Source of the DNA: Accumulibacter sp.
Lineage (GTDB): Bacteria; Pseudomonadota; Gammaproteobacteria; Burkholderiales; Rhodocyclaceae
Length of the DNA: 33,046 nt
Direction: 5' to 3'
Assembly: GCA_031257115.1 (NCBI GenBank)
Contig: JAIRPF010000026.1
Span: 1 to 33,046, forward strand
This document shows, piece after piece, positions 1 through 29,683 of the stretch. The notes under the pieces were generated by a model. The model was not told the DNA's origin, made no database searches, and saw only the letters and a program-made list of their open reading frames with translations. Every line of letters starts with the position of its first letter. Within the stretch, counting starts at the first letter, position 1. Position numbers and translations under genes: made by a program.

Positions 1-1056
1 GAAGTCAAAGGCATCGCTGGTATCGAGTCCGCGCTTTTCGACGGCTGGATATTCAGTGCCAATGCCGAAAATCAGCGCAAGCTGGAGCACGACGCCATGC
101 TCAACGCGCTGGAAAATTACGTCGCCGAACGCGGCTCCGCCATGCAGAAACTCTATGAGCGGCACCGCGAGGAAATCATCGCCGATCTTGGCCGCTATGT
201 CATCAACTCCGTGAAAATCCGGGACTGGGAGGACAAAGACCGGCATACACGCGGCATCGAAATCCGCGCCACCATCGACGTGGCCGCCCTGCAAGCCAGG
301 CTGGACAGCAACGCGGCCATCTCGTCGATCTCCGAAGAAGAAAAATCTCCTCTGGTGGTGGTTTTCATGACGCGCGAGCAGGAATCCGTGCAGGAGTTCG
401 ACGACCGCAGACTCAGACGCGGCCGCAGAAGCATCCAGCAGGGCGGCGAATACCGCGAGGAAACCGAAGAAGGTGAATCCATCCGGCGCGGTTCGGTCAA
501 AACCCACGGCTACGGCAGAGCGGAAGCGGGCGTTTCCGTGACAGCCGCCGTGGAAACCGGCGGCAGCCGCGTCCGCAGAAACGGCAGCGTCACCTGGAAA
601 GTTGAAACCCGCAGCGATGAACTCAACTCGGTCATGAACGACATTTTCAGCGACGCCGGATACGCGGTGTACGAAGCAGACGAAATTCCCGGTCTGCCAC
701 TTGAAAAAATCCGAAAAGAATTCAGAACAGCCAACGAACTTTCTCCCGGCATACGGCAGGCCATGACCGCCAGCGTCAGGCAGAACGACGTTTTCTATCT
801 GGTCTACGGCACGCTGGATGTGGGCGCGCGCGAACGTGACCCGGCAAGCGGTCTGGTTCGGGCGTATGCCAGCGTACAGGGCAAGGTGCTGGATTTGCGC
901 GGAAAACTGCCGCGCACGGTGGCGTCTGCGCTGATGGGGCCTTACGCCGGATTGGGGCCGACAGAAGATGTCGCGCGCCTCAATGCCCTGAAGGAAGCCG
1001 CCGCGCGCGCGGCGCAGGAAATCAGCAACAAACTCAATCTCAAGGCGGTACGCTGA
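1..1056 (+). CDS. FlgT/LPP20-like envelope protein, 5'-truncated by the window edge
   Basis: The frame is open from base 1, so the true start lies outside the window; 351 residues are visible. I do not recognise a named family with certainty. The early part has the pattern of a FlgT-N/LPP20-like fold: a helix with ALENYVAERG, then YVINSVKIRDWEDKDRHTRG and a beta strand IEIRATIDVAAL. A middle part begins PLVVVFMTREQ and carries a very Arg/Glu-rich stretch (RRLRRGRRS, then EETEEGES). A later alpha/beta part (DELNSVMNDIFSDAGY, then VFYLVYGTLDVG) ends in a helix rich in alanine. The stop is about 40 bases before the next gene, a lipoprotein, so the two are probably co-transcribed with the FlgT/CsgG-like gene after that. 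An envelope role is inferred from these neighbours. The signal peptide, if any, is outside the window. Confidence 0.6.
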   Translation, partial: EVKGIAGIESALFDGWIFSANAENQRKLEHDAMLNALENYVAERGSAMQKLYERHREEIIADLGRYVINSVKIRDWEDKDRHTRGIEIRATIDVAALQARLDSNAAISSISEEEKSPLVVVFMTREQESVQEFDDRRLRRGRRSIQQGGEYREETEEGESIRRGSVKTHGYGRAEAGVSVTAAVETGGSRVRRNGSVTWKVETRSDELNSVMNDIFSDAGYAVYEADEIPGLPLEKIRKEFRTANELSPGIRQAMTASVRQNDVFYLVYGTLDVGARERDPASGLVRAYASVQGKVLDLRGKLPRTVASALMGPYAGLGPTEDVARLNALKEAAARAAQEISNKLNLKAVR

Positions 1057-1097
1057 ATCCGCGGCCCGGTTTTTCATCTGTTCCAATGGAGGCAGTA

Positions 1098-1751
1098 ATG
1101 TTTCAGAAAATCATGCGCGTGTCGTTTCTCCTGGCTCTTCTGGGCGCGATGCCAGCCTGCCAAACGCTGAACGTCATTGATACCGTCACCGGTATGGCCG
1201 ATACCGAAAAATCCGGCAAGAAATCCGGGATGCCCGCCGCCGCCGGGGTTGGAGGAATATTGGTCGCCGATTTCGTCGTCGCGCAAAAACTCGTGCTGGA
1301 CGCGCAGATTTCATTCGCGCAAGCCTTCAATCTCAACGACCAGGCAAAACTCTTGCAGGCGGAAAAGCAAGCGCTTTCTTCCGGCAGTATCGACAAGACA
1401 AAATTGCAGAAAACGCAATCCGTCAGCGAGAACGCGCAAAAGGCCATTGAAGAGAAAATGGCGAAAAAGGCTTCCATGGATTCCTCCTCCAAAGGCAAAT
1501 ATGCGCGCGGCCTGGTTTCGCTCACCGGTGCGATGGGCATGACGAAGAAGCTCTCCAATGACGCGAAGGATTTCGCCTCGGCATCCGGAGTCGGCGCGCT
1601 GACCTCGCTTTTCTCCGCGGATGCCGCCGTTTACGTGGCGACGGGGATGCCCGGTTATCTTGTCAATCTCGCCAGCGCCACGAAATCCGCGCTCTCCTTC
1701 GGCAAGATGATGGACATCAAGCTGCCCAAAAATGCCGACTCGCTGTTGTGA
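1098..1751 (+). CDS. Putative lipoprotein with a module shared with the next gene
   Basis: A 217-residue protein. The start at 1098 is preferred over an in-frame ATG at 1086 because GGAGG (1088-1092) sits at proper spacing before it. The N-terminus is a lipoprotein-type signal: basic FQKIMR, hydrophobic VSFLLALLGAM, then PAC as an imperfect lipobox. A hydrophobic glycine/alanine stretch (AAAGVGGILVADFVVA) follows. A charged helical segment (residues about 90-132) is nearly the same as the C-terminal tail of the FlgT/CsgG-like protein downstream. The rest is Ala/Ser/Lys-rich and ends in SADSLL-like sequence. No known domain was recognised. By context it is probably a subunit or chaperone of an envelope assembly with the flanking genes. 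Confidence 0.7.
   Translation: MFQKIMRVSFLLALLGAMPACQTLNVIDTVTGMADTEKSGKKSGMPAAAGVGGILVADFVVAQKLVLDAQISFAQAFNLNDQAKLLQAEKQALSSGSIDKTKLQKTQSVSENAQKAIEEKMAKKASMDSSSKGKYARGLVSLTGAMGMTKKLSNDAKDFASASGVGALTSLFSADAAVYVATGMPGYLVNLASATKSALSFGKMMDIKLPKNADSLL
1365..1493 (+). repeat. Copy A of a 129-bp intragenic duplicated module
   Basis: Codes for 43 residues of the lipoprotein (from KQALSSGSIDKTKLQ to KASMDSSSK). It matches 3831-3959 at 32 of 43 residues and closely at DNA level, in the same reading frame. The predicted product is a charged, probably coiled-coil segment. Confidence 0.85.
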
Positions 1752-1796
1752 GAAAAATAGCGGCAAGTGGCTGGCTTTTCCGTATTTTCGATTTGA

Positions 1797-3989
1797 ATGG
1801 ATATCCTGATGACGCGCGTCACTCGCAGAACCGCTTTTGCGCTGGTGTTTGCCGGCATTCTTCTTTCTGCCCGCGGGAAAACGGAAGAAGCGCCGGAAGC
1901 CCGGTTCCAGACCCAGACCCAAATTCAAACACAAACCCAGGCGCGGACGACCGTCAGCCAAACAGTCGCCTCCGCCGCGCCGCTGGTGGAAGAAAAGCCT
2001 CTGCGCGCCGCGCCGGATTTCGGCGGCAATGCCGTGGTCTCGCGCGAAGCGGACGGCATCGGCGAAACGCCGGAAGCGGCGGTGCTCGCCGCGCTGCAAT
2101 CGGCCGTGGCGCAGGTGAATGGCGGCCCCGTCGCCAGCCATTTCCGGAAGCTGGCGCTGGAAAAAGGGGGGCGGAACGCGGGAAACATCCAGCCCGGCGG
2201 CATCAGCGAACTCGTGGCGGCTGCCTCGGAAGGCATGGTGCTGGGTTACGAAATCCTCTCGCGGGAGGAGGTCGAAAAGGTCGACAAGGACTCCGTCATC
2301 TGGACGCGCGAGGTCGATGCATCCGAGGAGATGGCTGCGGAAATCGACGAGAACTCCGTCACCCGGACGCGCGGGAGCAATGCGTCTGGCGGAACGGGGG
2401 GCGCCGGCGTTGCCGTGACGCTCAACGCCGACGCGAGAGGCCACTTCCAAACCGCCTGCATCCTGAACGGCGTGGCGGTGCAATGCCTGGTGGATACCGG
2501 CGCGAGTGTCGTTGCAATCAGCGCAAAAACCGCCGCTCGCCTGAATCTCGACATCACCGGGGCACGGGAATCCTTTGCGCAAACGGCCACCGGCACGGTA
2601 AAAACTTTGTCCCTGAAACTCTCCAGCGTTCAGGTCGGCAACATCACTCTGAACGACGTGGACGCCACCGTCATGCCGGGAGAAGGCGATACCCTCCTCG
2701 GCATGAGTTTTCTGAACCGCGTCAGCATGGAAAAGGACGAGAAGGGCGGCACCATGACGCTGCGCAGGGGCGCGGGCAAGAAACTCCATGACGGTGCAAG
2801 AAGAGCCTCCGGCGAAACCGGAACCAAGCGCGCGGGCAAGGCTGTCTTCCAGCGTGGCGGCATGGCGCGGGAATCGGAATTTCTCGGCCACGAGAAAATC
2901 CGCTACTGGAAAGTCCGCGTCCGCGCGCAGATCGCCCAGTACCGCGCGCCGGAAGAAAAGGGACGCCCGAAAATCACGGTGGCGATGCCGCGCGCGAAAA
3001 GCGGCACTTATCCCGTCGGCGACCAGCGCGTCCGCGCGGAAGATGTGGCGCGCGCCATCCAGCAGGAACTGGTGGATATTCTGACCCAGACCCAGCGCTT
3101 CATTGTGCTGGACCGGGATTTTGACGCGGAGACCGATGCCGAATTCGCGCGCATCGCGGAGGGCGGCATCCGCGCGGCGGACAGCGCCCGTCTGGGACAG
3201 CGCTTTGCGACCGATCTCATTCTGATTCCGGTCATCGAGCGTTTCGAGTATCCGCGCCATGAGCGCGCGCTGCGCATGTCCGATCGCAAGCTCGTCTCCT
3301 ATTCCGGCGGCGGGCGCGTCTCCCTGCGGCTTCTGAACGCCGCCACCGGAGAAATCGTGCTCTCCGACGGTTTTGAGCACACTCTGCCCGTCACCGCGCC
3401 CAGCACGCTGCCGCGCGAGATCGACGGCAAGAATATGGCCAAAATGATGATGAAAGCGTTGACCAGCAAAATTGGCCAAGCCATTGTCGGCGGCATTTTC
3501 CCGATCTCGGTGGTTCAGCTTTCGGGCGATCAAGTGGTGTTGAGTCAGGGCGGCGACGCCGTGCAAACCGGAGAACGCTGGCTGGCGGTCACTCTGGGCG
3601 AAGCGCTCACCGACCCGCAGACCGGACGCTCTTTGGGACGCAATGAAATTCCCTGCTGCACAATCCGCATTGACCGCGTTGCCGCGCAAACGGCGTATGG
3701 CACGATCGAAGAAGGCGCGGCAAAACCGGGGAGCACGTCTTTCCGTCCCGGCAGCATCGAGCTGCGCGCAAAACGCGCGCCGGGGGAACTCGTGGCCGCC
3801 GCTCAAAAAACCCCTGATCAGAAAACAGAAAAGAAAACGCTTTCTTCCGGCGGCATAGACAAGTCGAAACTGCAAAAAGCGCAATCCGTCAGCGAGCGGG
3901 CGCAAAAGGTCATTGACGAAAAAATGGCAGACAAAGCTTCCAGGAATTCCTCCTCCAAAGCCATTCAGAAAGAAGAGGAAGACTGGTAA
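1797..3989 (+). CDS. FlgT/CsgG-like envelope protein with an inserted retropepsin-type aspartic protease domain
   Basis: 730 residues if started at 1797; an in-frame ATG at 1809 gives a better signal peptide (TRVTRRTAFALVFAGILLSARG). Order seen: Gln/Thr-rich linker; a FlgT-N-like half (EAAVLAALQSAVAQVNG to GYEILSREE, residues about 90-158); an acidic linker with an imperfect repeat; a clan AA retropepsin domain (about 203-321) with catalytic VDTGAS at Asp233 and the closing LLGMSFLNRV motif; a basic linker; the strand YWKVRVRAQIAQY (about 370), which would complete the FlgT-N fold; a CsgG/FlgT-M-like part (AEDVARAIQQELVDIL, RFIVLDRDFDAE); and a FlgT-C-like beta domain (PISVVQLSGDQVVL). The tail is a copy of a module from the upstream lipoprotein. 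Bacterial retropepsins with VDTGAS and LLGMSFL match the TIGR02281 type. Placement in the periplasm or outer membrane is inferred. Confidence 0.75.
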   Translation: MDILMTRVTRRTAFALVFAGILLSARGKTEEAPEARFQTQTQIQTQTQARTTVSQTVASAAPLVEEKPLRAAPDFGGNAVVSREADGIGETPEAAVLAALQSAVAQVNGGPVASHFRKLALEKGGRNAGNIQPGGISELVAAASEGMVLGYEILSREEVEKVDKDSVIWTREVDASEEMAAEIDENSVTRTRGSNASGGTGGAGVAVTLNADARGHFQTACILNGVAVQCLVDTGASVVAISAKTAARLNLDITGARESFAQTATGTVKTLSLKLSSVQVGNITLNDVDATVMPGEGDTLLGMSFLNRVSMEKDEKGGTMTLRRGAGKKLHDGARRASGETGTKRAGKAVFQRGGMARESEFLGHEKIRYWKVRVRAQIAQYRAPEEKGRPKITVAMPRAKSGTYPVGDQRVRAEDVARAIQQELVDILTQTQRFIVLDRDFDAETDAEFARIAEGGIRAADSARLGQRFATDLILIPVIERFEYPRHERALRMSDRKLVSYSGGGRVSLRLLNAATGEIVLSDGFEHTLPVTAPSTLPREIDGKNMAKMMMKALTSKIGQAIVGGIFPISVVQLSGDQVVLSQGGDAVQTGERWLAVTLGEALTDPQTGRSLGRNEIPCCTIRIDRVAAQTAYGTIEEGAAKPGSTSFRPGSIELRAKRAPGELVAAAQKTPDQKTEKKTLSSGGIDKSKLQKAQSVSERAQKVIDEKMADKASRNSSSKAIQKEEEDW
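3831..3959 (+). repeat. Copy B of the 129-bp intragenic duplicated module
   Basis: Codes for residues about 679-721, just before the last nine residues (AIQKEEEDW) of the FlgT/CsgG-like protein. It is the same module as 1365-1493. In the lipoprotein it is internal; here it is a terminal tail, so the likely direction of copying is from the lipoprotein gene to this one. Confidence 0.85.
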
Positions 3990-4055
3990 TCCCCGAACTT
4001 TCCCGGGCACGCGCCCGGCAAGGTCTTCATTATTTCCGCTGAAAGGAATGACATC

Positions 4056-4190
4056 ATGCGAGGCGCTTTCCGCAAAAGTTTTCTTGTTCTGGGTTTGTTT
4101 GTCTGTCTGACCGGCTGTGGCGGCATGAGCCGAGTGGCACAGAATGACGCGCCGCCCTCCCCGGCGCGGGAAAGCGCGGCTCACGCCTGA
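4056..4190 (+). CDS. Small lipoprotein (44 residues), possibly frameshifted
   Basis: A short gene with an AAAGGA ribosome site (4042-4047) 8 bases before the ATG. The product starts MRGAFRKSFLVLGLFVCLTGC, a textbook lipoprotein signal peptide with lipobox LTGC (Cys21), followed by only 23 residues rich in Pro/Ala. It comes 66 bases after the FlgT/CsgG-like gene and probably ends the same operon. Just before its stop, the +1 frame reads on as LTPDIRRKFEETLNNTA to a stop at 4231-4233, which looks coding; a single indel near 4165-4180 may have cut a slightly longer lipoprotein short. Function unknown. Confidence 0.6.
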   Translation: MRGAFRKSFLVLGLFVCLTGCGGMSRVAQNDAPPSPARESAAHA

Positions 4191-4374
4191 CATCCGCCGC
4201 AAATTCGAGGAAACTCTGAACAACACAGCCTAAAAATGGATTCTCCGCATTTCACCGCGAGGACTTTGTGTTTCGAGCGGTTTTCCTGCTGTGCCACGCA
4301 GTTATCGGCGGATACCCCTGCCTTGCGGGCGCGGCAAATCTGTTTATTTTCGTCCGGTTTAATTTTTGCCTTCC

Positions 4375-6624: not shown

Positions 6625-8007
6625 ATGTTATCCGTCATGCCTTGGGTGGCCATCCTGGTCACGATCATTGCCGCTTACGGAATCATCAAGAACTACAAGA
6701 CCCACATGGTGCTGTTCTGCGCCGGATTCGCGCTGATCGTGCTCAGCGTGATCGCCGGCAACCATGACATTCTGCCGAAGGGCGCGAAATCTTCGGGAAC
6801 CCTCGTCTTCGACATCTTCGATCTGTTCCGCCTCATTTCCATCCGGCAGATTTCGGGAATCGGCTTTCTCATCCTGATCGCCGGCGGCTTTTCCACCTAC
6901 ATGGAACGCATCGGCGCGGCCGGCAAGCTGGTGCAGATTTGCGTGGAACCGCTGCGCTTCATCAGGAATCCCTACATCCTGCTGCCTTTCGCTTTCCTGA
7001 TCGGTCACGCCCTCGGCGTCGTGGTGCCCAGCGCCGCCGGGCTGGCGATGCTGCTGATGGTCTCCATGTTTCCGCTGCTGGTCGGCCTGGGCGTCACGCC
7101 GCCCGCCGCCGCCGCGATCATCGGTTCCACCTTGTGCATGAGCTACCCGCCCACCAGCCCGATGTCCATCCTGGCCGCCAAAACCATCGGCACGGAACCG
7201 GTCGCGCTCCTGATTCAATACCAGTTGGCCCTGGCCATTCCGGTGGCGCTCGTCATCGCCGTCCTGCACGGCTTCGTGCAGCGTTATTTCGACAAAAAGG
7301 AGGGCCTCGCCAGCTCGGCCGTCGCGGTCGAAACGCAATCCCGCTCCGATCCGAGGGTGGCCGCGCTGCCGGGCTATTACGCCCTGTTCCCGCTCGTCCC
7401 GCTCGCGCTGCTCGTCGTCTTCAACAAGCTGGTGTGGAAAACCATCGTTCTCGACACGTCTACCGCCATGATCGTCGGCTGGTTCCTCGCCATCGCCGTC
7501 GATTTGCTGCGCAACCGCGACATCAAGAAGACCTTCGACGACAGCATGGCGATGTTTTCCGGCATGGGGGCGATCCTCACCTCCGTCGTATCCCTGATTT
7601 TCGTCGCCGATTTCTTCTCCAGCGGCTTGCAGGCCAGCGGTCTCATCAACCTGCTGATGGACGCCGCCAAGGCCAGCGGCACCGGAGTGACGGGCAGCAC
7701 CGTCGTGCTTTCGGCCTGCGTCGGTTTCATCGCCCTGCTGACGGGCAGCGGCGTCGCCGCCTTCACCAGCCTGGTCGGCCTGGTGCCGCCGCTGGCCCAG
7801 TCCGTGGGCGGAGACCCCGGCGCCATGATCCTGCCGATCCAGTTCGCCTCGGAAATGATCCGTCCGGTCTCCCCGGTGGCCGGCGTAATCATCATCGTCG
7901 CCGGCGCGGCGAAAGTGTCGCCCGTCTCCATCGCCAAGCGCGAAGCCATTCCCATGGGCGCCGGCATGATCGCCATCCTGGTGTTGAACTACGTCCTGTT
8001 TACCTGA
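6625..8007 (+). CDS. dcuC: DcuC-family C4-dicarboxylate transporter
   Basis: 460 residues, the usual DcuC length (about 460), with 12 or so hydrophobic segments throughout. Family features seen: the early IKNYKTHMVLFCAGFAL segment, GFSTYMERIGAAGKLV followed by a P-L-R-F-I loop, FVQRYFDKKEG in the central cytoplasmic loop, and the C-terminal LTGSGVAAFTSLVGLVPPLA and IRPVSPVAGVIIIVAGAAKVSP. DcuC carriers move fumarate or succinate across the inner membrane, chiefly in anaerobic growth; some relatives carry other acids, so the substrate here is uncertain. The start is preceded by AAGGGG. An M20 hydrolase follows after 38 bases and probably shares the transcript, so the imported compound may be the hydrolase's substrate or product. 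Confidence 0.85.
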   Translation: MLSVMPWVAILVTIIAAYGIIKNYKTHMVLFCAGFALIVLSVIAGNHDILPKGAKSSGTLVFDIFDLFRLISIRQISGIGFLILIAGGFSTYMERIGAAGKLVQICVEPLRFIRNPYILLPFAFLIGHALGVVVPSAAGLAMLLMVSMFPLLVGLGVTPPAAAAIIGSTLCMSYPPTSPMSILAAKTIGTEPVALLIQYQLALAIPVALVIAVLHGFVQRYFDKKEGLASSAVAVETQSRSDPRVAALPGYYALFPLVPLALLVVFNKLVWKTIVLDTSTAMIVGWFLAIAVDLLRNRDIKKTFDDSMAMFSGMGAILTSVVSLIFVADFFSSGLQASGLINLLMDAAKASGTGVTGSTVVLSACVGFIALLTGSGVAAFTSLVGLVPPLAQSVGGDPGAMILPIQFASEMIRPVSPVAGVIIIVAGAAKVSPVSIAKREAIPMGAGMIAILVLNYVLFT

Positions 8008-9287: not shown

Positions 9288-9385
9288 CGAAAAACGGCGC
9301 GAACATCATCCGCGTCCGCCGTGGTTGACTGCCTTTATAACCACGGCAAACACGGCGGACACGGCGAAAAACAAGGAAAAACCTC

Positions 9386-9554
9386 GTCATTCCCGCGCAA
9401 GCGGGAATCCAGGAACATACCTACCGGCGCGAAGCGCCGCAAGCCAAACCTCCCTCCTGAGGGAGGTATCACGCCGAAGGCGTGACGGAGGGAGTCGGGC
9501 GGTTGAATCATCAAACGCGGAGAAACACGTCATTTCCGCGTTCGCGGGAATGAC
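9386..9554. repeat. Composite dispersed repeat (R1 half, R2, R1 half)
   Basis: The 530-base gap before the YhcH-like gene holds no gene. At 9386-9411 is an R1 end (CGTCATTCCCGC, GCAA, GCGGGAATCC). At 9427-9515 is R2 (CTCCCTCCTGAGGGAGG, then ATCACGCCGAAGGCGTGACG and GGCGGTTGAATC). At 9528-9554 is a second R1 stem. The same R2-spacer-R1 order recurs at 29448-29552. The first 60 bases of the gap (9318-9370) contain the CACGGCGG-type 9-base repeat. The rest, to about 9800, shows nothing recognisable. Confidence 0.75.
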
Positions 9555-9817
9555 GACATTCTTGGGGAAAGTGGCTCGCGCGGTAGTCCGACTCGCGTCT
9601 ACCGGTATCCGTCGACAAGAATGCCGGCGCGGGGCAATCTCATTTTCAAACCGTTCGCGCCGCGAAGACGGGCTGTGGGCAACGCCTTGGCACGGCGAGG
9701 CGAAACCGGCGAAGGCGCGGGCGATTCAGGAATGGAATCGGAGGATAATGGCCGGGTTTACGACGCGCGCCGGATGAGAACGGCGCATTTTACAATCCAC
9801 GCAAAGGAGAATCCTTC

Positions 9818-11474: not shown

Positions 11475-11858
11475 TCAATCGCCGGCGTCGAGCAGTTCCA
11501 GGACTTTTTCCGGCGGCCGGCCGATGACGGCGCGCTTGCCGCGCACGGCGATCGGGCGTTCGATCAGGATCGGATGCGCGGCCAGTGCATCGAGCCATTG
11601 TTCCTCGTCCAGCGTCTTGCCGGCGTAATTTTCCTTGAACACGCTTTCCCCGCGCCGGACGAGTTCGGAGGGCTTCATGCCCAGTTTTTTCAACAGCTCG
11701 CGGAGTTCTTCCCGGCTGGGCGGCGTTTTCAGATACTCGACGATCCGCGCCTCGACGCCTTTGCCCGCGACGATTTCGCAGGCCGAACGGCTTTTCGAGC
11801 AGCGGGCGTTGTGGTAGATGACGAGTTCCTGGGCTTTCCCCTTGCATTTGCAGGCCAT
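11475..11858 (-). CDS. arsC: ArsC-family arsenate reductase-like protein
   Basis: 127 residues from ATG 11858, with GGAG upstream. The thioredoxin-fold ArsC signature is seen: LVIYHNARCSKSRSACEIV with the catalytic cysteine at about residue 20, EYLKTPPSREELRELLKKLGM, the acidic segment LDALAAHPILIERPIAV with the arsenate-binding arginine, and GRPPEKVLELL at the end. Glutaredoxin-linked ArsC reduces arsenate to arsenite. A short extra N-terminus (MACKCKGKAQE) with two cysteines precedes the usual start. No arsenite pump or ArsR is nearby, so a housekeeping YfgD-type role is possible. Confidence 0.85.
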   Translation of the reverse strand: MACKCKGKAQELVIYHNARCSKSRSACEIVAGKGVEARIVEYLKTPPSREELRELLKKLGMKPSELVRRGESVFKENYAGKTLDEEQWLDALAAHPILIERPIAVRGKRAVIGRPPEKVLELLDAGD

Positions 11859-11961
11859 GATGTCTCCATGAAAGCGAATCCGGGAGATAGTTAACCACGG
11901 CGGATGCGGGAAACGCAAGTTCGCGCGGCGGCGCGTTTTGGCATCGACCGCCCGCGCATTC

Positions 11962-12087
11962 CCGTCGTTCCCTTGGCAAGCGGGAATCCGGTTCCTTGTT
12001 TTCAGCCCGAAGGGCCGTGAATTCAAAGGATGCGGCGCTCCGCGCCGGAAGGTACGAGCTGGATTCCCGCGTTCGCGGGAATGACGG
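11962..12087. repeat. R1 element, full MITE-like copy
   Basis: About 126 bases with inverted ends: the left end reads CGTCGTTCCCTTGGCAAGC then GGGAATCCGG; the right end is CTGGATTCCCGCGTTCGC then GGGAATGACGG. Inside are CAGCCCGAAGGGC and the hairpin GGCGCTCCGCGCC. It has the same plan as 29526-29649. Half copies lie at 9386, 18389 and 32828. It codes for nothing convincing. Confidence 0.75.
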
Positions 12088-12095
12088 GGCCTTTT

Positions 12096-12350
12096 TCGTT
12101 TTTCACCGTGTTCGTCGCGGTCAAGGTTTTGCTTTTCTCCGTATCCTCCGTGGTTAATCTTGCTTTTTATGCGCTGGATTCCCGCGTTCGCGGGAATGAC
12201 GGCTGTGATGGAACCGGCGGAGGCGACGGCGAACCGGATACCGGCAGGCAAGGGCGTGACGGGGGGGCCTTGCTTTTCGCCGTGCCCGCCGTGTTCGTTG
12301 TGGTCAAGTTTTTCGCTTCTGCCTTTCGCCGCGCCTGCCGTGGTTATCCC
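12096..12350. repeat. Degenerate 9-base tandem repeat (CCGTGTTCG type) with an R1 stem
   Basis: The gap 11859-12492 has no gene. Besides the R1 element it contains CACCGTGTTCGTCGCGGTC at about 12105 and CCGTGCCCGCCGTGTTCGTT at about 12281. These show a 9-base period of the form CGCCGTGNN, ending CCGTGGTTA. A further R1 stem is at 12173-12202. The period gives false open frames with His-Gly-Glu repeats. Confidence 0.6.
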
Positions 12351-12492
12351 GGTTTTGCTTCTGGGGTTTGCAATTCTTCCGGCGTTCCATATCATTTTCG
12401 GAACATCGGTCCAAAGTGGCGTTCGTAATTCCGGTGCGTCGTTGGCGGAGGCGCTTTTCAAACCGTGCGTTGCCGGAACCTGGAGCTTTGTG

Positions 12493-13932
12493 ATGCCCGA
12501 CATGGTATCGCCCGAAATGCTTCACGATTACGAGCGGATTCGCAGCCTTGCGATGCCGTCGTTGTTCGAGAGCCTCGAAGACCTTTGCAAGGGGACGGTG
12601 ATCGTCGATCGCAACGCGCGCATCGTGTGGATCAACGAGCGTTACGCGACCCTGCTGGGCGCGAAATCGGCGGCGGACGCCATCGGCCGGGAGGTCGAGG
12701 AGGTCATTCCTTGCAGCCTGATGCGCAAGGTGGTGACGACGGGACATTCGATTCCGCTCGATCTCATGGAAGCGAACGGAAAGACCTTCGTGGTGATGCG
12801 CGCGCTCCTCAGGGACGAGCGTGGCGAGATCGTCGGCGCGGTCGGGTTCGCGCTCTTCGACCAGGTCCAGCCGCTCAAGCCGTTGTTCGTCAAGCTGGAG
12901 GCCATCCAGCAGGAACTGGCGATGAACCGGAGGCGGCTGGCCGAGGAGCGGTGCGCCAAGTACAATTTTTCCAACTTCGTCGGTTCCAGCCCGGTGTGCG
13001 TGGAAGTGAAGCGGCAGGCGAGGCGCGCGGCCCAGCTCGACACGACGGTCCTGCTGCTGGGCGAAACCGGGACGGGCAAGGAATTGCTGGCGCACACCAT
13101 CCACGGGGCGTCGACGCGCGCCGGAAAGCCGTTCGTCGGCGTGAACGTCGCGGCCATTCCGGAGACGCTCCTGGAGACCGAGTTTTTCGGCGCCGTTTCC
13201 GGGGCCTGCACGGGGGCCGACAAGCGCGGGCGCAAGGGCAAGTTCGAGGTGGCCGACGGCGGAACGCTGTTCCTCGACGAGATCGGCGACATGCCCCTGC
13301 AACTCCAGTCCAAGCTGCTGCGCGTGTTGCAGGAGCAGGAATTTGAGCCGGTCGGCTCGGATCAGGTGAAAAGCGTGAACGTGCGGGTGATCGCCGCGAC
13401 CAGCGCCGATCTGCAAAAGCGGGTGGCGCGGGGGACGTTCCGCGCCGACCTCTACTATCGCCTCAACGTGCTCCCCATCCGCGTTCCGCCGTTGCGCGAG
13501 CGTACCGCCGACATGGGCGCGCTCTGCGAGTACGTCCTGGAGCAGATCGGACAGCGGACGGGAATGACGCACCTCGATCTGTCGCCCGACGCGATCGATC
13601 GTCTGTGCCAGTACCGCTGGCCGGGCAACATCCGGGAATTGCGCAACGTCCTGGAAAAGGCGGTCATGCTCTCGGACAAGAACTGGCTCTCGGCCGAGGA
13701 TCTGGAGGGCGTCCTGCCCGTGGAGGCGGGCGGCTGGCGGTCGGGCGGCGCGTCGGCGGCGGGCGGGGTGTCCTCGTATGCGCGAGCCGTCGAGGAGTTC
13801 GAGCGGGAGTTTTTGTCCAACGCGCTGTCCGTCGCGCGCGGCAAGGTCGACGAGGCGGCCCGGATCCTCGGCCTGGCGCGCGCCACGCTCTACCGGAAGC
13901 TGAAAACCTACGGCCTGCTGTCGCAGGAATGA
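12493..13932 (+). CDS. PAS-domain sigma54-dependent activator with altered GAFTGA loop
   Basis: 479 residues; GGAG lies 7 bases before the ATG. Order: PAS-type sensor (residues about 20-130, GTVIVDRNARIVWINERY), a linker helix, the AAA+ domain with Walker A GETGTGKE (190-197), Walker B TLFLDEIGDM, the arginine-finger region FRADLYYRLNVLPIRVPPLRER and sensor II WPGNIRELRN, then a Fis-type HTH (KVDEAARILGLARATLYRKL). Such proteins use ATP to open sigma54 promoters. The loop that touches sigma54, normally GAFTGA, reads GACTGA here (Cys239), and the preceding FGxExG has become FGAVSG. By position it should control the permease, CoA-transferase and SDR genes just downstream. A loss or change of function is possible. 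Confidence 0.9.
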   Translation: MPDMVSPEMLHDYERIRSLAMPSLFESLEDLCKGTVIVDRNARIVWINERYATLLGAKSAADAIGREVEEVIPCSLMRKVVTTGHSIPLDLMEANGKTFVVMRALLRDERGEIVGAVGFALFDQVQPLKPLFVKLEAIQQELAMNRRRLAEERCAKYNFSNFVGSSPVCVEVKRQARRAAQLDTTVLLLGETGTGKELLAHTIHGASTRAGKPFVGVNVAAIPETLLETEFFGAVSGACTGADKRGRKGKFEVADGGTLFLDEIGDMPLQLQSKLLRVLQEQEFEPVGSDQVKSVNVRVIAATSADLQKRVARGTFRADLYYRLNVLPIRVPPLRERTADMGALCEYVLEQIGQRTGMTHLDLSPDAIDRLCQYRWPGNIRELRNVLEKAVMLSDKNWLSAEDLEGVLPVEAGGWRSGGASAAGGVSSYARAVEEFEREFLSNALSVARGKVDEAARILGLARATLYRKLKTYGLLSQE

Positions 13933-18280: not shown

Positions 18281-18315
18281 AAACGGAGCGCGGGCAGGAT
18301 GTCCGCGCTCCGTTT
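18281..18315. repeat. Short R3-type hairpin after the SDR gene
   Basis: AAACGGAGCGCGG and CCGCGCTCCGTTT pair perfectly around 9 bases. It shares GGAGCGCGGGC with the R3 repeat at 10615-10683. There is no T tract, so a terminator role is uncertain. Confidence 0.6.
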
Positions 18316-18388
18316 CGCATGTCTGTCCGGACTGAAAACGCCCCTGTCATTCCAACAAAAATCCCCATTATCCTCACGTCTCCCCTCC

Positions 18389-18480
18389 CGTCATTCCCGC
18401 GAAAGCGGAAATCCAGCGCGTGGAACTCCGGCGCGGAGCGCCGCTGTTTTTTGCCTCCCTCAAAAGAGAGGATTCATTCC
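18389..18480. repeat. R1 half copy joined to an R2 fragment
   Basis: CGTCATTCCCGCGAAAGCGG then AAATCCAG, the hairpin GGCGCGGAGCGCC and CCTCCCTCAAAAGAGAGG. The gap 18240-18717 has no gene; its last 100 bases are AT-rich and probably hold the sbp promoter. Confidence 0.65.
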
Positions 18481-18622
18481 AGCGCGCTGCGCGCGAATAG
18501 GCGAGCGCGCTCGTCCCGTGGATTTTCCGCTGATGGGCATTGAAACGGGCCACACGTGTATCACTCGATCCGGTTCTGAAGCGAACCGTATGCCTCGTCG
18601 CTTTCCGCCACTTCGTTCATAT

Positions 18623-18668
18623 TTATTTTATTCTAAGAAAATAAGTTTTTATTCGTGGTAAATATAAA
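18623..18668 (+). promoter_or_regulatory. AT-rich regulatory region before the sulfate operon
   Basis: TTATTTT and AAAATAA form an inverted repeat (18623-18644) and TATAAA (18663-18668) could be the -10 box. No good -35 box is seen, which fits activator control. CysB is the usual activator of such operons but is not shown by the sequence. Confidence 0.35.
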
Positions 18669-24117: not shown

Positions 24118-25494
24118 ATGACCGACAAACCGCTGGAACGGATGGACATCGTCATTACCGGACATGTCGACCACGGCAAAAGCACGCTCATTGGCCGACT
24201 GCTCGCGGACACACGCGCGCTGCCCGACGGCAAGCTCGAAAGTGTCCGGCAGTCCTGCTCGCGGAATGGGCGGGTATTTGAATATTCCATGCTGCTCGAC
24301 GCCTTGGAGGATGAACAAAGGCAGGGAATCACCATCGACAGCGCGCGCGTTTTCTTTAAAAGCGAGAGACGCGAATATGTGTTGATCGACGCGCCCGGAC
24401 ATATTGAATTCCTGCGCAATATGCTGAGCGGCGCCTCCCGCGCGGTCGCCGCGCTCCTGGTGATCGACGCGCTGGAAGGCGTTGCCGAGAATTCGAGGCG
24501 GCACGGGCTTTTGCTTTCGCTGCTCGGAATCAACCAGGTCGTCGTGGCGATCAACAAGCTCGATCGCCTCGACTATGATGAATCCGCCTTTCGGCGGGTA
24601 AAAAACGAATATGAAGCATATCTCGATTCCCTGGACGTCAAGCCCGTTGCTTTCGTCCCCGTTTCCGCCCGCGAGGGGAAAAACCTGATGTATCGCGCGC
24701 CGGAGATGCCGTGGTATCAGGGAAAAACGATACTCGAGGTTTTGGAGGGGTTTCAAAATGCCCCGGTGGAAGAAGACGCGCCCTTCACGATGCCGTTGCA
24801 GGACATTTACCGCTTCAGCAATAACGACGATGACCGCCGCATTTATGCCGGGACGATTGCCAGCGGGAAAGTCAGACGCAATGATCTTGTTCGCTTTTTG
24901 CCTTCCAACAAGGAAGCGCATGTCAGGACGATAGAATCATGGAACGTGCCGGAAAAAACGGAGGCCACCGTCGGCGAGGCCGCCGGTTTTACGCTGCTTG
25001 AAGACATCTATGTCAGAAGCGGCGAGGTTCTCGTCAAGGCCGATGAGAATCATCCCGTCGTCGTTGCGACGAAAATCGCGGCCAGCATGATTTGGCTGGG
25101 TTCCGAGCCATTCTCGTTCGAGAGAAATTATCTATTCAAGCTGGGCAATACGAAAACACAGGTCCGGCTCGAAAAAATCGAAAGAATACTTGGCGATGCG
25201 CCGGATGGCGATTATTATGGATTGCGGCGCAACGAATGTGGAAATGTCATCCTGGGACTTTCCAATCCCGTGGCGCTGACAAGGTTCCAGGAAAATTTTA
25301 TCCTCGGACGCTTTGTAATCGTCGACGGATTCGATGCCGCCGGCGGCGGCATCGTGCTCGCGCCTCTCATCGATTCCGGACAAGACTCGTCGAAAACACT
25401 GGAATTCGAAGAAGAACTTTTTCTCCTGCTCAGAAAACATTTTCCGCACCGTTTCAGAAATTCCGGCGGCAATCATCAGGATTATTCCATTTAG
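24118..25494 (+). CDS. cysN: Sulfate adenylyltransferase subunit 1, GTPase (CysN)
   Basis: 458 residues. An EF-Tu-like GTPase with G1 GHVDHGKST (residues about 15-23), G2 region [21 protein letters not shown]3 DAPGHIEF, G4 NKLD, and G5 region [10 protein letters not shown], followed by two beta-barrel domains ([20 protein letters not shown]). It couples GTP hydrolysis to APS formation by CysD. The length matches stand-alone CysN; no APS kinase (CysC) is fused, in keeping with the APS-type CysH. It is the last gene of the operon. No clear terminator follows. Confidence 0.94.
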
Positions 25495-28780: not shown

Positions 28781-29317
28781 CGGCGTACCATAAGCAAATA
28801 TCCGACCATACTCATGCGTAGCGCGGCGTCGATAACGACGGTTCGCGCCGCGCTCGTTCTTATGCCCTGAAAACCGCGCCCGCCGCCATCGGCCCGTCAA
28901 TTTTTCCCCCTCTTCCTTCCTCCTGTTCGTCCAATGCGTTCAATAGCCTTCCGCAACGTCCCGAAAATTTAGGGGTATTCGCAGGGGTAAAAATTTTGGG
29001 TCTTGACTGGTACACCGAAAACAGCTTTACAAGCTGACGAAATTTTGCCCTCGGGCGAGAAAGTTTTCACTGGCCAATTTGGGAGTTCGCTTTGAGGAGC
29101 ATAGGGAAAATATCACCGCGTAGGTGTCACGCATCGAAGCGGCATCACCTGTAAGGATGCTGTCACCTTCTCATGCGGCGGGCGTCAGGGGCGAGCGCGG
29201 CGCGGCCCGCCGTTTCCGACGCCGCGCCGCTCATGTGATTTCTTGTCAAAAAACATAGACGCTGCCGCGGCAAATGTCATGACCGCCCCGGAGAACCGGA
29301 ATCCTTGCCCCGGATGC
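28781..29317. other. Spacer with no recognisable gene
   Basis: About 540 bases of mixed composition. No frame gives a known protein and no ribosome site with a convincing frame was found. An AT-rich patch lies near 28970-29060. It may be further relic DNA from the broken autotransporter region. Confidence 0.5.
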
Positions 29318-29449
29318 TCATGGCGCGGCCGGTTTTCCCTTGCTGGTTCCGGTCGAGCCAGTTCCGGCGGGAGGTTTCGCCATGAGATAGGCCGCGGCCT
29401 TGCCGTTTTTCTTCTCCAGCGCCACATCCAGAGGCAAGCTGCCGTCTGC
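29318..29449 (-). pseudogene. Ankyrin-repeat protein C-terminal fragment
   Basis: Read on the minus strand, 43 codons give ADGSLPLDVALEKKNGKAAA then YLMAKPPAGTGSTG and a stop at 29318-29320. The DGSLPLDVALEKKNGKAAAYL part is a clear last ankyrin repeat. Codons before it are replaced by an R2 repeat starting at 29450, so the gene has lost its 5' part. Confidence 0.6.
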
Positions 29450-29512
29450 TGGGAGGTGTCGCGCCGAAGGCATGACGGAAGGAGTTTGGCGGTTGAATTC
29501 CCAAACGCGAAC
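29450..29512. repeat. R2 dispersed repeat
   Basis: GGGAGGTGTCGCGCCGAAGG, then CATGACGGAAGGAGT and GGCGGTTGAAT, as at 9450-9515 and 10445-10505. It borders the ankyrin fragment and runs into the R1 element, as it does in the composite at 9427-9554. Confidence 0.7.
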
Positions 29513-29525
29513 AAACAGGGAAAAT

Positions 29526-29649
29526 CGTCATTCCCGCGCAGGCGGGAATCCAGTTGATTATTCCAGCCCAAAGGGCTGCAAATTAAAAAGATGCGGCGCT
29601 TCGCGCCGGAAAGTAGACGCTGGATTCCCGCTTCTGCGGGAATGACGGG
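29526..29649. repeat. R1 element, full MITE-like copy
   Basis: About 124 bases. Left end CGTCATTCCCGCGCAGGC then GGGAATCCAG; right end CTGGATTCCCGCTTCTGC then GGGAATGACGG, so the ends are inverted copies. Inside are CCAGCCCAAAGGGCTG and the hairpin GGCGCTTCGCGCC. Same plan as 11962-12087. Confidence 0.8.
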
Positions 29650-29683
29650 AAAAGGAACGGTCATCACTTGAACCGGAAACGCT

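Follow-up and report, generated by a model that had tools for sequence, protein, structure and literature searches.

The open reading frame P0001 is predicted from its sequence to encode a retropepsin domain (residues 207-321) lodged inside a protein of the FlgT/CsgG type. Both parts are of known kinds, and their nesting is new within the genomes, plasmids and phages searched. The best explanation that we can offer, to which we would give a probability of about 0.42, is a periplasmic protein that is activated by assembly and cleaves itself or a partner. Bacterial retropepsins are mostly small stand-alone proteins and their switching-on is poorly known; a retropepsin in an oligomer-forming scaffold would be a natural design for assembly-triggered proteolysis. 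Furthermore, the gene offers a clear case of an enzyme entering another protein, with a host loop that was long and presumably disordered in relatives beforehand.

Gene organisation and operon context

The window, i.e. the whole stretch of DNA analysed, is one complete contig of 33,046 bases from a draft genome of 3.36 Mb in 212 contigs, and P0001 lies near the contig end. The features of P0001 and of its operon partners are as follows.

1..1056, +, P0002, operon partner; 5' end cut by the contig start, frame open from base 1
1086..1751, +, P0003, secreted operon partner with homologues in relatives
1797..3989, +, P0001, fusion ORF of 730 aa, with Met5 (1809) as the likely start
1809..1874, +, signal peptide region MTRVTRRTAFALVFAGILLSAR, with Arg26 at the lipobox Cys position
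2019..2270, +, N-terminal domain, first half (aa 75-158, through YEILSREE), 55-61% identical to homologues
2281..2386, +, 43-bp tandem duplication in the loop, just 5' of the protease (copies 2281-2323 and 2344-2386)
2340..2801, +, insert (aa 182-335) by comparison with locus L060, which has about 29 loop residues here
2415..2759, +, predicted TIGR02281 clan AA retropepsin domain (aa 207-321), from profile, motifs and fold
2865..2945, +, second bracketing strand (aa 357-383, ...YWKVRVRAQIAQY), from alignment and AF2 model
2949..3776, +, CsgG/FlgT_M-like middle and FlgT C-terminal-like part (aa 385-660), from CsgG, FlgT and TsaP matches
3828..3963, +, copied piece of P0003 in the C-terminal linker, from protein and DNA similarity
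3972..3986, +, C-terminal EEEDW, fitting the acidic-x-Trp end of the family

The frame of P0001 runs across 730 codons with neither stop nor frameshift; a frame of 971 aa on the antisense strand (1311-4226, -) was set aside as a shadow of P0001. The ORF, the VDTGAS motif with Asp233 and the LLGMSFL motif had all been correctly located in an earlier note on this DNA.

P0001 comes third in a conserved operon of three genes for exported envelope proteins, P0002-P0003-P0001, whose order recurs in Stenotrophomonas and in many Burkholderiales. P0002 is 51% identical to positions 1318-2295 of L060, the closest syntenic locus, which comes from a Zoogloeaceae MAG, and homologues of it were present in 83 of the searched sequences; neither P0002 nor P0003 matched a Pfam family. 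In L060 the operon is followed, at a distance of about 2 kb, by a gene for the flagellar hook capping protein FlgD (6791-7561). No flagellar gene was recognised in the window.

The product of P0001 is presumably exported, as its signal peptide supports. A lipobox pattern was matched automatically in 75 of the 77 homologues that were long enough to judge; the lipobox Cys is lost in P0001, where Arg26 (CGC, 1872-1874) stands in its place (LLSARGK vs LLSACGK). The signal peptide of P0003 ends with Cys (MPACQT); in nearly all homologues of P0003 a Cys-free A-x-A site of signal peptidase I type is present instead, L028 and L105 being the exceptions. It is possible that the lipid anchor moved from P0001 to this operon partner.

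The C-terminal linker of P0001 contains a 136-bp segment (3828-3963) similar to positions 1362-1497 of P0003 and in the same frame, with 70% amino-acid identity to the translation of 1356-1496. The conserved acidic-x-Trp end is kept after this tail insertion (EEEDW). In each of the 75 homologues whose C terminus is complete, a low-complexity linker leads to a closing acidic stretch with Trp (DDPNW, DDKW, EDW), possibly a docking signal. The lipobox loss and the tail insertion could be signs of relaxed constraint. It should be added that the lost Cys, the P0003 piece in the tail and the confinement of the fusion to one genome are observations beyond those of the earlier note.

The retropepsin domain

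Residues 207-321 match the NCBIfam profile TIGR02281 with an E-value of 7.2e-27 and 94 bits, above its curated cut-off of 57.95 bits, and the Pfam family gag-asp_proteas with an E-value of 5e-23. Given these profile scores, VDTGAS (residues 232-237, with the predicted catalytic Asp233 encoded at 2493-2495) and LLGMSFL (residues 300-306, 2694-2714) are not chance motifs, and the protease unit proposed in the earlier note is real. Ten stand-alone TIGR02281 proteins share 31 invariant columns, of which P0001 keeps 29; it has the commonest residue in only 30 of the 92 other columns, which is the pattern expected if an active fold is maintained. At the two remaining invariant positions, P0001 has Thr in place of Asn in the flap (TATG for TANG) and Lys in place of Arg near the end of the domain.

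Modelled alone with AF2, the domain reached a pLDDT of 81. The top nine Foldseek matches of this model were APRc structures, followed by SIV/HIV proteases and Ddi1, with TM scores of 0.79-0.81 to APRc and an rmsd of 1.9 Å to 5c9f_A; APRc was also the best match in a sequence profile search (E 3.5e-21). The domain with Asp233 is retropepsin-like in its predicted fold, and we regard the protease as an intact-looking predicted retropepsin of the TIGR02281/APRc type.

Stand-alone TIGR02281 proteins, about 43-50% identical to the catalytic domain of P0001, occur in 174 of 323 genomes of the class, and the genome itself encodes exactly one further TIGR02281 protein, a stand-alone one of 244 aa on contig C18. 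A recent copy of the latter was rejected as the source, for it shows 44% identity and was not grouped with the P0001 domain in a weakly supported tree. The P0001 protease branch in the tree measures 1.59 vs a median of 0.28, its placement being unsupported. The searched genomes held no near-identical source of the inserted protease, the best match being about 50% identical. A phage origin was rejected as well, since no phage record matches; viral contigs contain distant proteases only, with 29-41% identity to that of P0001. One of them, encoded at 1838-2356 of the IMG/VR contig L125, is an apparently membrane-anchored TIGR02281-like protease of 172 aa and 41% identity; this contig has been classed as viral, yet may derive from a host. 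The GC content at third positions is 0.77 in the insert vs 0.75-0.82 in the neighbouring gene parts.

The FlgT/CsgG-type scaffold and the insertion point

Searching 300 genomes of the order with the C-terminal half of P0001 yielded a relative with 63% identity in a frame of 573 aa, and several further relatives at 31-40%. A scan of GTDB contigs added 80 homologous loci (L037-L116) from Stenotrophomonas, Xanthomonas, Herbaspirillum, Comamonadaceae, Pandoraea, Variovorax and others. Each of the 34 aligned family members has a CsgG match with E <= 1 (best 1.9e-12), and LpoB, FlgT_M and LPP20 are matched by 26, five and two of them, respectively. P0001 itself gives a weak CsgG match from residue 385 with 16.5 bits, under the cut-off of 20.8, and the scaffold also matches TsaP (E 0.0039). 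The scaffold of P0001 keeps 41 of 41 family-invariant columns; within the close clade it departs from 14% of the otherwise invariant columns vs 2-7% in the other members, and a good part of these departures lies in the loop.

In the AF2 model of residues 63-672, pLDDT was 85-96 over most of the C-terminal part and mostly 66-93 in the first half of the N-terminal domain, with low confidence near aa 123-131. It was below 50 over most of the insert, as no aligned relative carries it; viral proteases that were added to the full alignment came out misaligned. The best Foldseek match of the scaffold model in the PDB was FlgT in the LPHT ring (6.9e-17), followed by FlgT alone (4.0e-16), then by GNA1162 and CsgG and, at a lower rank, by PelC. 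The FlgT match covers the part after the insert, because its 313-319 columns (gaps included) are too short to span the latter. The piece before the insert likely belongs to a domain of the FlgT_N/LPP20 type. By sequence, LPP20 was detected in 2-3 members with best E-values of 0.02-0.1, and its hhalign probability was 1%, though the residues pair in the expected order. FlgT-type flanks as suggested in the earlier note are supported by the fold, with FlgT as the best match, while by sequence FlgT_N/LPP20 is seen only at E 0.02-0.1.

The pieces with YEILSREE and YWKVRVRAQI had been proposed to be adjacent strands, and in distant relatives free of the protease they are indeed joined by a turn of few residues, e.g. 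'LVSSFKVLNVTAPDKKGGSYTVDIEAKIAKF' in L084. Close relatives have at this point a Ser/Ala/Gly-rich loop of up to ~90 residues, presumably disordered, between 'LGYEILSQEEVDKVDEE..' and '..KRGASSYESDVSHKKMRSYWKV', and P0001 keeps recognisable versions of both loop ends. L060 aligns to P0001 at residues 11-181 and 336-672, with both sides of the insert falling within one frame of 566 aa, which places the insert at about 182-335, i.e. about 154 residues in place of about 29. The insertion itself was thereby confirmed, and its originally proposed width (159-368) had to be reduced. The bracketing strands are predicted by the AF2 model at aa 148-173 and 357-383. Since the loop was already variable and presumably disordered in close relatives, we consider this an insertion at a permissive site and not the interruption of a conserved core; the location between adjacent strands, as proposed in the earlier note, holds and is refined in this sense.

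Distribution and authenticity of the fusion

The fusion is present in one genome only among those searched. The motif D-T-G-[AST]-[ST] is absent from the corresponding frame in 80 of 80 homologous loci, and no other fusion was found in these GTDB loci or in 60 relatives, nor in 300 genomes of the order, 299 of the family and all 29 of the genus. No copies were found on plasmids, and no report of such a nested protease/scaffold architecture among open-licence papers. The novelty of the arrangement, as surmised earlier, was thus borne out in the searches of relatives. Furthermore, the scaffold gene is missing from the remaining 28 genomes of the genus, and in the search of 299 genomes of the family six others gave matches, all to distant versions of it (24-42%), so that the operon may have been horizontally gained.

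As to the affiliation of the contig, HscA at its far end is 78-88% identical to its counterparts in genomes of the same genus. A CysN-like GTPase (window 24118-25494) was unhelpful in this respect, its best same-genus matches being about 30-35% identical; it is probably a different or transferred type of CysN. Elsewhere in the window (9325-9777, 11475-12503, 18299-18661 and 29185-29667), phrases such as SRESGNP, IPAFAGMT and DSRLRGNDD recur in the translations of chance ORFs, which points to a repeat dispersed between genes.

Possible function and alternative explanations

One active site of a retropepsin takes two chains, as established for HIV protease, and FlgT, CsgG and PelC assemble into rings; the PDB matches of the scaffold to these proteins include ring or oligomer structures. 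Taken together, this need for two monomers and the ring-forming scaffolds suggest that the protease could be switched on by assembly. Having lost the Cys for its lipid anchor, P0001 would be a soluble periplasmic protein or be retained in the periplasm by partners. Assembly of the scaffold would then pair the protease domains of neighbouring subunits and turn them on, and the paired proteases would cut flexible segments nearby, namely the linkers at about 175-206 and 325-366 or the C-terminal tail. An alternative target would be P0003, the operon partner from which a piece was copied into the tail. That the protein cuts its own linkers, or else its operon partner, is, tentatively and at somewhat below even odds, the outcome that we expect most. 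A more specific version, drawn by analogy with the retroviral polyprotein, whose assembly activates the protease, is an assembly-gated envelope protease in which ring assembly creates active dimers and cleavage matures the ring or the operon partner; put in such detail, it is rather unlikely.

Several traits would also fit a private, drifting gene, in which a protease landed in a tolerant loop while the old role was fading, and is now a passenger or weakly used. The fusion is confined to one genome, with no scaffold gene in the rest of the genus, the lipobox Cys is gone, a piece of the neighbouring gene sits in the tail and the protease branch is long. Nevertheless, such drift is hard to combine with 730 codons free of stops and frameshifts, with the retention of all 41 invariant residues in the scaffold and of 29 out of 31 in the protease, with third-position GC in the insert like that of the rest, and with an acidic-x-Trp end preserved after the tail insertion; we consider it unlikely, but deserving of serious attention. 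Another reading is an envelope protease similar to PerP or APRc that cuts other proteins, the scaffold serving only to place the enzyme with no gating by assembly. It draws on the frequency of stand-alone TIGR02281 proteins in the class and the presence of one in this genome, and on APRc, a retropepsin embedded in the membrane whose catalytic domain is soluble (PMC4140852). However, a stand-alone enzyme is already present in this genome, and P0001 has no lipid anchor for such placement; we hold this reading to be quite improbable.

The retropepsin fold might also serve for recognition and not for cleavage, as a catalytically silent binding module. The TATG flap would be compatible with this, as would the non-proteolytic immunoglobulin binding that is reported for APRc (PMC8649778); the DTGAS and LLGM motifs are, however, intact, and we find such a module very improbable. 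Finally, a gene close to the end of a contig in a single draft genome of 212 contigs might be an assembly or binning artefact joining two genes. Yet both flanks match one homologue, L060, in one frame, both loop ends are retained, the inserted protease has no copy elsewhere (best about 50% identity), and HscA ties the same contig to the genus, so that an artefact is hardly credible. The assembly-activated protein that cleaves itself or a partner remains our preferred explanation.

Comparison with known systems

The gene family of P0001 is that of the CsgG/LpoB-like lipoproteins of Burkholderiales and Stenotrophomonas (L037-L116), with which it has the operon order and the acidic-x-Trp end in common; these proteins, unlike P0001, have no protease, their loop is short or Ser/Ala/Gly-rich, and the lipobox is present in 75 of 77. 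FlgT of the Vibrio flagellar H ring (PDB 3W1E and 8Z5N; E 4e-16 and 6.9e-17) is the best match of the scaffold. It lacks a protease and is flagellar, whereas a flagellar role of the P0001 family is only putative.

On the side of the enzyme, the stand-alone TIGR02281 proteins have 29 of 31 invariant residues in common with P0001, but they are short proteins, each with an N-terminal part and a signal or anchor of its own; among the matches listed in the class, the other TIGR02281 frames do not exceed 487 aa. APRc (RC1339) of Rickettsia conorii (PDB 5C9B, 5C9D and 5C9F) reportedly runs as a dimer and autoprocesses N-terminal to its catalytic domain (PMC4140852), which would suit the activation by assembly considered above. 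It has a bacterial retropepsin fold with DTGA and LLG motifs, like P0001; APRc is a stand-alone, membrane-embedded protein, whereas the predicted retropepsin domain of P0001 sits inside the hairpin of another protein.
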